A stretch of 20,536 nucleotides of DNA from a virus, in IMG/VR virus record IMGVR_UViG_3300035670_001457, positions 1-20,536 of that record; one strand, written 5' to 3'. This document shows positions 6,259 through 9,746 of this stretch, one piece after another. The position numbers and the translations under genes were made by a program. Numbering within the stretch: the stretch's first letter is position 1; each line of letters starts with the position of its first letter. Under the pieces are notes generated by a model that did not search any database, had not been told where the DNA came from, and saw only the letters and a program-made list of their open reading frames with translations.

Positions 6259-6658
6259 TTTGAAACACCACCACCATAGAAGGAAACGGAGCCGGGTTAG
6301 CCGCCCCAGCAAACGTAAGCCTGCCTTTTAGAAACTTAAGCGGCCTATGTAGACAAAACTTATGAAACCATACCGTATCCGTCCTTGCAGGCAGCAAGGC
6401 GACCGTTAATGCTATCTCTTCACTGGCTTTCTTAACCCACCTACCCACCTCTCGCCCATACGGAGGGTTCATAAATACCCGCTCCCCCGCCCAACTCTTA
6501 GACAGCCCGTCATCCTGCTTGGTATAATATCGGGCGCACTTATGGTTGTCAGCAGACGCGCAGGCGTCTATCGTAAACCCATACTGCGCATTAAGACTAT
6601 CATACAACGCCTGCGGTGTTGACCACTCATAGGACTTTGATGAGAAATGAATACTCAT
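6251..6658 (-). CDS. Phage DNA N6-adenine methyltransferase (Dam family, PF05869 type)
   Basis: 135 residues; ATG start with AGGAGGTAAGT upstream. The protein has the phage Dam pattern: EWSTPQALYDSL at the start, FTIDACASADNHKCARYYT (residues 28-46), DDGLSKSW (49-56) and the catalytic VFMNPPYGREVGRWVKKA with NPPY at residues 64-67, then a strand TVALLPARTDTVWFH and a C-terminal RLTFAGAANPAPFPSMVVVF. The enzyme would methylate adenine in phage DNA, for example to escape restriction. It is shorter than many family members (about 150-180 residues) but all core motifs are present. Sequence specificity cannot be read from the sequence. Confidence 0.92.
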   Translation of the reverse strand: MSIHFSSKSYEWSTPQALYDSLNAQYGFTIDACASADNHKCARYYTKQDDGLSKSWAGERVFMNPPYGREVGRWVKKASEEIALTVALLPARTDTVWFHKFCLHRPLKFLKGRLTFAGAANPAPFPSMVVVFQND

Positions 6659-6858: not shown

Positions 6859-7908
6859 CTACCTAAGCGGCATTACTAAGTTATTAATCGAAACATCCGC
6901 CGTTCCGCATACACACAGAGGCCTGGAGTTCTCGTTAGGAAGATACAAGGAACAGGACCTATTAGCAAAGGCATCTAAAACATAGTATGCGTTAATATGA
7001 ACGTCCAAGCCCTGCCCATTATACTCATCTTGAAATTCTATCTCTGTCCAAGCTTCTCCTACCTGAGGGCTACTCGCACTAATCTTAATGCGATCGGTCA
7101 CACTTAGCCTGACTACACTGGATATTCTACTTACATCTATTATCTTGTTTTTAAAATCCTCATAGTCAATACACAGTACATTCCTATCAAATGAAGGCAC
7201 GGATAGCATACCCTCATCGCTTATCACTACCAATATCTGATGAGTATCGTTTTTTACCACGATATGATTCTCTACCTTTGCGAGCCATACGTCCCCCTTA
7301 CCCAAACACTTAATCATTAGTGCCAACGCCTTTTTCGTAATTGACGCGGTAAAAGGGCCTCCAACGCAAGTAATAGTTGAAGAATGCCGTCTATAAGAAT
7401 CCGTAGTTACTAATTGCATAGTGGCACCGTCCAGCACCAACTGGACATACCTACTCATCCTGTTTGAAGATTCCCTAACCTTCAACACATTAGCCGCAGC
7501 CTTAATAAACTTATCGCGGGAAACTCTTGTAAGATTATCCCCGCTATGACTAGGCACGCAAGGAAAATCCAACGGCTCTAACCCTCCTATCCGATACATA
7601 ATATTCTCATAACTAATTTCAAACCAACGATCTTGAATTTCGCTAATTTCAACTGTGTCACAAGGCAGCCCCTTAATAACAGATAATAAGACCCCGACAG
7701 GCATCAGCGCCTTTCCTTCTTCTATAACTTCCGCCTCTATTCGTGTCGTGTAATAAAAATCTAAATTGGTCGCTGAAATAGTTATAAAATCCCGATACGT
7801 TACTATTAATACACCCGCAAGAGCAGAAATATTTTTATCCGCAAGGGCAATCCCCTCACACTTCTTCAACTCTTCAATAAGAAATTTCTTCCTACACAGA
7901 ATTCGCAT
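6859..7908 (-). CDS. dnaN: DNA polymerase III beta subunit (sliding clamp) homologue
   Basis: 349 residues from the ATG at 7908, chosen for GGAAGG eight bases upstream and because the start MRILCRKKFLIEELKKC matches clamp N-termini. Three-domain clamp features include SATNLDFYYTTRIEAEV (about residues 47-63), a GLEPLDFPCVP loop at about 107-117, LVTTDSYRRHSS near 175-186 (the family's ATDGHRL-like loop), and a C-terminal NNLVMPLR that matches the clamp YxVMPMR ending. A ring clamp tethers the DNA polymerase to DNA. The length is slightly below the bacterial norm (about 365-380). No clamp loader is visible in the window, so the host loader would probably be used. Confidence 0.92.
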   Translation of the reverse strand: MRILCRKKFLIEELKKCEGIALADKNISALAGVLIVTYRDFITISATNLDFYYTTRIEAEVIEEGKALMPVGVLLSVIKGLPCDTVEISEIQDRWFEISYENIMYRIGGLEPLDFPCVPSHSGDNLTRVSRDKFIKAAANVLKVRESSNRMSRYVQLVLDGATMQLVTTDSYRRHSSTITCVGGPFTASITKKALALMIKCLGKGDVWLAKVENHIVVKNDTHQILVVISDEGMLSVPSFDRNVLCIDYEDFKNKIIDVSRISSVVRLSVTDRIKISASSPQVGEAWTEIEFQDEYNGQGLDVHINAYYVLDAFANRSCSLYLPNENSRPLCVCGTADVSINNLVMPLR

Positions 7909-8050
7909 CGTTGCTACCTTCCATCTTGCCAAGTTTTCCACACCAAGGACAATAATATGACATACCTTGTAGAGGGGCATCCCCGATACTAAACCACCCC
8001 TCACAATATGTGCACTGGAAGTGCACTAACGTCTCAATGCTGTATCTCAT
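7892..8050 (-). CDS. Small zinc-ribbon-like protein
   Basis: 52 residues, reading M-R-Y-S-I-E-T-L-V-H first, with two Cys pairs: FQCTYCEGW (Cys13, Cys16) and YYCPWCGKLG (Cys34, Cys37). CxxC-x17-CxxC is a standard zinc-ribbon spacing. The ATG at 8050 has GAGGAG four to six bases upstream, an excellent ribosome site. The 3' end overlaps the dnaN start by 17 bases in another frame, as other genes here do. Function unknown; small zinc ribbons in phages often bind nucleic acid or protein partners. Confidence 0.72.
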   Translation of the reverse strand: MRYSIETLVHFQCTYCEGWFSIGDAPLQGMSYYCPWCGKLGKMEGSNDANSV

Positions 8051-8144
8051 AACTCCTCCTCAAAACCAATTTCCTTGTGAATCTTGCATACATTCTTTCT
8101 CGCAAATACAACATTGTCCGAGAAAAGAACAGCCATTCCTCCGT

Positions 8145-8169
8145 CACCGTCCGAACAGCACGGACATAA
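8145..8169 (-). repeat. Orphan 25-bp copy of the DUF1566 gene end, with GC hairpin
   Basis: Identical at 24 of 25 positions to 8433-8457, which encodes the TTATGTCCGTGCTGTG... end of the DUF1566 gene. The copy keeps the small hairpin GTCCG-7-CGGAC (8149-8165). It lies outside any convincing gene, with stop codons just upstream in the YVRAVRTV frame. Either it is the remnant of a lost second DUF1566 gene or an element related to retroelement targeting. Confidence 0.75.
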
Positions 8170-8196: not shown

Positions 8197-8427
8197 TCAA
8201 TTTTCCTTACTATAACCAGGTTTTTCATTCAAATATGCTTCCAGACACATATGAACTAGAGCAATAACTCCGTCATCTCTTACATGCTCTGGGATATGAT
8301 ATGTCTCGTTATTATATCGGCATATATATGACCCTTTTAAGGGGTGCTCCTTATGTTTTCCTGTGTTGAAAATTATAAATTTCACTATATATTCATTACC
8401 GTTTATCGATATAACTACTTGAATCAC
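8197..8427 (-). CDS. Small protein translated through the DUF1566 stop, unknown function
   Basis: 76 residues with a GTG start that overlaps the DUF1566 TGA stop by four bases (GTGA), implying translational coupling; no independent strong ribosome site is seen. The sequence is strand-rich at first (IQVVISINGNEYIVKFIIF) and has ICRYNNETYHIP and a helical C-terminus (GVIALVHMCLEAYLNEK). It has two cysteines, not paired. No family recognised. It immediately follows the putative variable region, so it could only be judged real by conservation. Confidence 0.5.
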   Translation of the reverse strand: MIQVVISINGNEYIVKFIIFNTGKHKEHPLKGSYICRYNNETYHIPEHVRDDGVIALVHMCLEAYLNEKPGYSKEN

Positions 8428-8801
8428 TCTGACACCGTCCGCACAGCACGGACATAATAACTAGCCGACTTATAGACGCAGCCGACGAAGCCACCGTCAA
8501 AGCCGACGCGCCACGCGTAGCCACTACTATCGGCATCGGTAGTAGACGACCAATAATCGGACGACAAAGTGTCTGGAAAAACTTCGATATCGATTGCTGG
8601 GCTATATCGGCTATAATCCACAATACTATGTAATTCCTGAATAGTTGGTAATCGCCAATCATTATAGCCACCCAGTGATAAATTTTTACAATAAGAAATC
8701 GCCGCTTCCCAATTCATTGGATTGCCATCCATTTCTTTCTGCCACATAAGACCTGTAGTGATGTCTGTTACTGTCTCATCTTTATTGTCTTTGAATCTCA
8801 T
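8424..8801 (-). CDS. DUF1566 (Lcl C-terminal-like) protein with a putative variable 3' end
   Basis: 125 residues, ATG start behind GGAGAAG. It is a single DUF1566 domain: RFKDNKDETVTDITTGLMWQ, WEAAISYCKNLSLGGYNDWR, LPTIQELHSIVDYSRYSPAI, DYWSSTTDADSSGYAWRVGF and a terminal SYYVRAVRTV. Such lectin-like domains occur on surface or adhesion proteins and are a common target of diversity-generating retroelements. From residue 88 on, the codons at positions that vary in the family are almost all NNC or NNT (GAT, GAT, AGT, AGT, GGC, CGC, GGC, GAC, GGT, TTC, GGC, TGC, GTC, TAT, GCT, AGT), as expected if copied from AAC/AAT. No membrane segment or fibre domain is fused, so how it is displayed is unknown. 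Confidence 0.88.
   Translation of the reverse strand: MRFKDNKDETVTDITTGLMWQKEMDGNPMNWEAAISYCKNLSLGGYNDWRLPTIQELHSIVDYSRYSPAIDIEVFPDTLSSDYWSSTTDADSSGYAWRVGFDGGFVGCVYKSASYYVRAVRTVSE
8437..8540 (-). other. Putative DGR variable region with IMH-like hairpin
   Basis: Codons at 8457-8540 form the candidate variable region of the DUF1566 gene. It is followed by a GC-rich hairpin GTCCG-TGCTGTG-CGGAC at 8437-8453, in the position of the initiation-of-mutagenic-homing site of known systems. Neither the template repeat nor the reverse transcriptase is in the window, so this is a call from codon pattern and family only. Confidence 0.55.
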
Positions 8802-9341: not shown

Positions 9342-9450
9342 TTAGCACCTCCAATATATCTCCGTCACAGCAATCACACGTAGGCCAAAGCCTACGATAG
9401 AAATTGCCTGGGGTTACCTGCCCACAACTACAACATCTAAATAATTTCAT
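9325..9450 (-). CDS. Tiny cysteine-rich, probably zinc-binding protein
   Basis: 41 residues starting MKLFRCCSCGQVTPGNFYRR and followed by CDCCDGD. Cysteines 6, 7 and 9 and 27, 29 and 30 form two clusters, CCSC and CDCC, in the manner of a small zinc ribbon or rubredoxin-like knuckle. The ATG overlaps the TGA of the DUF5664-like gene (ATGA), so translation is probably coupled; the nearest ribosome-site-like AGGA is about twelve bases away. Function unknown. Confidence 0.6.
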   Translation of the reverse strand: MKLFRCCSCGQVTPGNFYRRLWPTCDCCDGDILEVLNDNVL

Positions 9451-9746
9451 CTGTCATCAATTCCTTTATTATTTATGCTCATCCATAATAAGGTAATGAC
9501 GTTCCATGCTGCTTGGGCTAAGTGATATAACCCAGTCTCTTCATCCTTATCTTGTCCTTTCCAAAACGATGTAAGATGTCTTAATGTGGCGTCATATATC
9601 CTACTATATTGGAAACCTTTTTTCCAATTATCGATGCCATACTTTTTTGCCCCTACCATATACACCTCTATAATAGCTTCAATGGCTGTTAGGGGTAGTT
9701 GATGCCATTGAAGCTTTTGTAAATCGTTTTTAGTTCCCTGTTCCAC
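9447..9746 (-). CDS. DUF5664-type protein, related to phage dATP/dGTP diphosphohydrolases
   Basis: 99 residues, GTG start with AAAGGAA about eight bases upstream. The family pattern is complete: LQWHQLPLTAIEAIIEVYMV, GAKKYGIDNWKKGF (residues about 32-45), SRIYDATLRHLTSFWKGQDKD, then ETGLYHLAQAAWNVITLL. Acidic and His residues (DATLRH, DEETGLYH) resemble the metal-binding part of all-alpha NTP pyrophosphohydrolases of the MazG type. The family includes phage enzymes that hydrolyse dATP or dGTP and thereby alter the nucleotide pool; the substrate here is not known. Its place beside replication genes and thyX fits a nucleotide-pool role. Confidence 0.82.
   Translation of the reverse strand: MEQGTKNDLQKLQWHQLPLTAIEAIIEVYMVGAKKYGIDNWKKGFQYSRIYDATLRHLTSFWKGQDKDEETGLYHLAQAAWNVITLLWMSINNKGIDDR

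Follow-up and report, generated by a model that had tools for sequence, protein, structure and literature searches.

A probable target of a diversity-generating retroelement in a phage Lcl_C gene, recognised by its codons on a contig without reverse transcriptase

Results and discussion

The 3′ end of a small Lcl_C (DUF1566) gene on a phage contig, positions 8427..8558 of the minus strand, was very probably written by a diversity-generating retroelement (DGR), a system that randomises chosen codons. From the sequence comparisons, we put the probability of this reading at about 0.9, because all 11 of 11 template columns match and third-base identity to DGR-type relatives, about 0.35 before the variable region (VR), rises at its start, while it stays flat in controls. 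An initial annotation had proposed a DGR target here, and this proposal is now well supported: the template columns agree one by one with the template repeats (TRs) of relatives, conservation at silent sites sets in at the VR boundary, and the codon signature tracks the presence of a reverse transcriptase (RT). DUF1566 has been reported to be the commonest Pfam domain among DGR targets (PMC6642488).

Gene neighbourhood and predicted fold

The window, meaning the whole stretch of DNA analysed, is a linear virus record of 20,536 bases with 44% GC, and represents a fragment of a phage genome. Its other genes encode an HK97-type capsid protein, ThyX, Dam, a DnaN-like clamp and a dATP/dGTP diphosphohydrolase, as well as helicase, exonuclease, ssDNA-binding, VapE and DNA polymerase I proteins. 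The Lcl_C gene (8424..8801, minus strand), its ATG immediately preceded by GAGGAGAAG, codes for a standalone domain of 125 aa without N-terminal extension, and matches PF07603 (Lcl_C/DUF1566) over the full profile length (E=5.9e-40, 136.7 bits, cut-off 34.9). It lies between the gene of the DnaN-type sliding clamp (6859..7911, minus strand; PF00712 E=1.6e-11, PF02768 E=2.6e-8) and that of the diphosphohydrolase (9447-9746). The clamp gene occupies the slot that the RT gene has in most DGR-bearing relatives. Similarly, a 76-aa ORF without family match (8197..8427, minus strand), located between the end of the Lcl_C gene and a second copy of the VR tail, sits in the slot of avd in relatives such as L022. 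Rfam searches of the window gave no match.

The AlphaFold2 model of the 125-aa protein, built on a 60-sequence alignment, had a mean pLDDT of 97.0. Its Foldseek matches were Lcl and C-type lectins, the nearest PDB fold being the Legionella Lcl C-terminal domain (8q4e; E=9.5e-6, TM 0.67, 31% identity). As modelled, the product is a small protein with a C-type-lectin fold.

Codon and base signature

Codons 89-116 (8454-8537, minus strand) read GAT GCC GAT AGT AGT GGC TAC GCG TGG CGC GTC GGC TTT GAC GGT GGC TTC GTC GGC TGC GTC TAT AAG TCG GCT AGT TAT TAT, bearing out the codons that had been listed earlier for this gene end. NNY codons account for 25/29 of codons 89-117; upstream, in codons 1-82, they make up 42/82 (Fisher p=0.0006). 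Among the 5,107 windows of 29 codons in 25 gene models, this one ranks highest for NNY, and the best elsewhere has 23. In the variable stretch, coding-strand adenine drops from 34% to 14% and GC3 rises from 0.34 to 0.59. Together with the rise in third-base identity described below, these shifts delimit the putative VR (8427..8558, minus strand), with a 5′ edge at about codons 79-83 and a 3′ edge near the stop codon.

Such a pattern could also come from ordinary lectin evolution, in which a preference for Y, N, D, S and G at the binding face would yield NNY codons without any retroelement, and indeed many of the variable residues (Y, D, F, C) have NNY codons only. However, where the amino acid offers both NNY and NNR, NNY is still used in 15/17 cases, versus 20/42 upstream (p=0.004). 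Furthermore, Lcl_C relatives with neither RT nor signature use NNR codons, and K, E, M and W, at the same columns, and the conservation of silent sites begins at the VR. We therefore consider ordinary evolution very improbable.

Templates of relatives match the window by column

An alignment-based search gathered 77 viral loci with Lcl_C. RT was found in 36/80 of the viral contigs searched (the 77 Lcl_C loci plus three capsid relatives), and an ungapped search tolerating changes at template adenines recovered a TR in most of the RT-bearing contigs. Downstream of the gene, the TR typically comes after 0.5-1.1 kb and the RT some 200-300 bases later. VR and TR agree closely outside the adenines: in 34 loci, mismatches at non-adenine template positions number only 6/1,517.

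The window belongs to a VR subclass with the pattern YWSSTT-A----YAW-V-F--G-V----KS--YYVRAVR. Scanning bacterial genomes for this subclass gave four loci with a TR, from three Campylobacterales MAGs (L094, L095, L098) and a Verrucomicrobia MAG (L102), and phage L124, in which all differences between TR and VR are at adenines, came from a scan of viruses with the template pattern. The template codons of the four bacterial loci place the diversified codons of the window at 8457..8537 (minus strand). Eleven test columns were defined by requiring AAY in three or all four of the bacterial TRs. At the columns aligned with the relatives' template AAC/AAT, the window has TAC CGC GGC GAC GGT TTC GGC TGC GTC TAT GCT, i.e. 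NNY in 11/11. Non-DGR controls, with neither RT nor pattern, reached 8/11 (L014), 6/11 (L071) and 6/11 (L068).

In place of template adenines, the window has 11 G, 6 T and 2 C by hand count, which follows the spectrum of true VRs (212 G, 125 T and 44 C). Template adenines were kept at 3/22 positions (0.14), below every true VR measured (0.27-0.61), and therefore some of the assumed template codons may be wrong, or the gene may have passed through many rounds.

Two observations concern the relatives themselves. The Campylobacterales locus L095 (9758-11190) has a target, an Avd-like gene and a TR differing at adenines only, with no RT match anywhere in the MAG. The loci L087, L035, L026 and L031 each hold 2-4 Lcl_C VRs differing at first and second bases; mostly, 35-38 of 39-40 third bases are common to a pair, and one L087 copy shares 27-28 of 38. 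No RT was found in the contigs of the viral loci L035, L026 and L031, and RTs are present in the MAG of L087.

Proposed mechanism

A DGR reverse transcriptase would copy a template RNA rich in AAC/AAT codons, misreading its adenines, and the cDNA would then replace the end of the Lcl_C gene, turning AAY codons into random NNY. Scaffold codons (YAW, V, F, G, KS, YVRAVR) would retain the template sequence, and the variable residues of the product would fall at the variable positions of the Lcl_C family. RT and TR presumably act from elsewhere, or once did. The variable face of the protein probably binds a ligand.

Third-base conservation begins at the VR boundary

Compared with ten DGR-type relatives, third-base identity of the window was about 0.31-0.48 over the first 70 codons; from codon 73-79 onward it reached 0.56-0.77. 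Six controls stayed at 0.21-0.49 throughout, without any rise, and at 0.21-0.38 in the VR. At NNY columns shared with the window, agreement in C or T with the VRs of unrelated loci exceeded that of shuffles for L049 and L095 (p=0.003) and for L007, L080 and L087 (~0.013), and was not above shuffles for L010, L014, L071 and L045 (p>=0.69). The C/T third bases of the window, set against the majority of the four subclass TRs, gave p=0.06, and this comparison was dropped as a stand-alone proof. The silent-site tests are interdependent and were chosen after the pattern had been seen; the controls behaved as expected.

VR tail, hairpin and tail copy

The VR ends in an invariant tail, YVRAVRTVSE (8427..8456, minus strand), at the position of the IMH-type tail that VR and TR have in common in relatives. 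This position was set by comparing VR and TR tails in the viral loci with a TR and in the four subclass loci. Inside the tail lies a small hairpin, GTCCG-N7-CGGAC (8437..8453, minus strand; DNA fold -5.3 kcal/mol, z=-2.3). The GC-rich hairpin of the initial annotation thus exists, but it is weaker than claimed, having a stem of 5-6 bp, and it is located within the last codons and not 3′ of the gene. Target hairpins described in phage DGRs have a GC-rich stem of 7-10 bp and a GRNA loop (PMC3240598). Similar tails of relatives, TR-bearing loci included, folded no better than shuffles. We rejected the hairpin as a DGR recognition element: its stem is too short, it lies in the coding tail, and it is absent from the TR-bearing relatives tested.

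A second copy of the VR tail is found 288 nt downstream (8139..8169, minus strand), with 28/31 identical positions; the next best place for the 31-nt tail in the window reaches 18-20/31. The copy keeps the hairpin stem and has one loop base altered. No template body precedes it, as the stretch upstream matches the predicted TR at only 24/99 positions, and it was discarded as an intact template end for this reason. We regard it as a remnant, of either another target or a template. The tail of a second target fits slightly better, because the codon before TATGTC is TTT, not AAT.

The signature tracks RT among viral relatives

Across 66 viral relatives, a 7-column signature was compared with RT in the contig: RT was present in 32/53 signature-positive loci versus 1/13 signature-negative ones (p=0.0006). 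The remaining 21/53 signature-positive loci had no RT in the contig and no TR in the fetched stretch, and ten of these 21 are on contigs >30 kb, besides L015. Same-strand RT matches were mostly close to the target, with 28/36 at 0.76-1.36 kb downstream and 5 at 3.5-6.6 kb. The RT of L008 was rejected as the DGR of the L008 Lcl gene, being 10 kb away on the opposite strand, with no TR found.

Location of the RT and template

The initial annotation had placed the template outside the window and had suggested looking for an RT and an adenine-biased repeat. This search covered the 20.5 kb fragment, and neither is present there. No PF00078 match was obtained in the 20,536-base record, including the 8.4 kb downstream of the Lcl_C gene, and with adenine mismatches allowed, only the 31-nt tail copy was recovered as a repeat in the window. 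The data would agree with a template outside the window. The Avd profile PF05635 had no match in the fragment, and that family's control genomes gave none either. The VR-tail pattern had no match in 2.9 million viral contigs, and single-protein searches of viral contigs with Lcl, helicase, VapE and clamp confirmed no near relatives; none was found in phage records either. A capsid search found three relatives, all without Lcl_C and RT.

The DGR core may well lie in the same phage genome outside the contig, a placement to which we give somewhat less than an even chance. It might, for example, be near the tail genes expected after the capsid, beyond coordinate 1. Several relatives carry additional Lcl_C VRs, at distances from the first that range from hundreds of bases to kilobases, and most pairs have 31-40 of 39-40 third bases in common; second targets are therefore common.

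Alternatively, the core once stood beside the Lcl_C gene, TR and RT were lost, and the VR is now frozen. A pair of phages, L015 and L022 (about 10680 onward), ~93% identical over long stretches, illustrates such a loss: L022 has Lcl, avd, TR and RT, and L015 lacks ~1.36 kb (the 3′ end of avd, TR and RT) and keeps the target. The window would fit, with its 31-nt tail copy 288 nt from the VR and nothing else of a template, and RT-less DGR remnants are on record (PMC4372165; PMC4891356). Such RT-less fragments were interpreted either as fossils or as being diversified from a distance (PMC4372165). However, NNY has persisted at all 11 template-type columns, which means that any loss must be recent, and with 5 of the 36 RT matches of relatives several kilobases from their targets, distance alone is no proof. 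We hold a relic to be possible, if rather unlikely.

Finally, the phage may carry the target only, rewritten in trans by a DGR that belongs to the host or to a co-resident element. The RT-less signature-positive loci on long contigs would agree with this, as would the VR silent sites common to the window and L049 or L080, which share no other gene with the window (tblastn 1e-4, fetched loci). Within a single genome, remote targets have been described (PMC4891356, PMC7517822). On the other hand, no host is known for the window phage, the contigs of relatives may be incomplete, and conserved silent sites are equally expected from TRs conserved across DGRs. Rewriting in trans is, in our estimate, unlikely. 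Its extension to a class of phages, in which bare early-region Lcl_C genes would be RT-less targets diversified by host or other DGRs and unrelated phages would share one template pool, is decidedly doubtful.

Wherever the core resides, the DGR-written reading of the gene end implies that codons alone suffice to recognise a target when RT and template are missing, and the controls gauge how reliable this is in the Lcl_C family. DGR searches that begin with the RT miss orphan targets such as the window gene and the 21 viral loci. If such targets are diversified in trans, phages make use of machinery that belongs to others; as relics, the orphan targets would be a record of DGR loss. The position of the window gene amid replication and nucleotide genes hints at a role of the variable lectin other than tail adsorption.

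Comparison with known systems

The protein resembles the C-terminal domain of Legionella pneumophila Lcl (8q4e) in fold, but only at the identity of 31% given above, and we know of no evidence that this Lcl is DGR-diversified. With the DUF1566/Lcl_C targets of DGRs (PMC6642488), the window gene shares the Lcl_C fold, a VR at the 3′ end, the AAY-to-NNY pattern and the scaffold YWSST..YAW-V-F--G-V----KS--YVRAVR. Unlike them, it is found on a 20.5 kb fragment without RT, TR or detected Avd, as a bare 125-aa domain amid replication and nucleotide genes and not in a tail module.

Within the VR subclass, L094, L095, L098, L102 and phage L124 have template AAY at the same columns. In contrast to the window, a TR is found in each of them at 0.65-1.5 kb from the VR, and L098 and L124 also have an RT. 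Most similar in setting are the RT-less phage genes L007, L009, L049, L080 and L077, which encode small Lcl_C proteins among early or accessory genes and have NNY at all 11 template columns, with no RT in contigs of 22-91 kb; these are otherwise unrelated phages. In L007 (7013-7753), one open frame joins an Lcl_C domain with a DGR-type VR to a domain resembling dATP/dGTP pyrophosphohydrolases (PF04447, just under its cut-off). In the 54 kb contig of L049, which has no RT, the full gene is preceded at a distance of ~3.6 kb by a truncated second Lcl_C frame (MRFQEADYAWHVHFYYGYDRCCFKYHSSYYVWSVRGGR, 6286-6387), which apparently arose by an internal deletion.

A limited term search of the literature, and hence a weak one, found no paper in which bare Lcl_C genes from the early region of phages are treated as orphan targets. 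The kind of system is already known, as DUF1566 targets, remote targets and RT-less DGR fragments have all been described; RT-less phage lectin targets are an under-described class.
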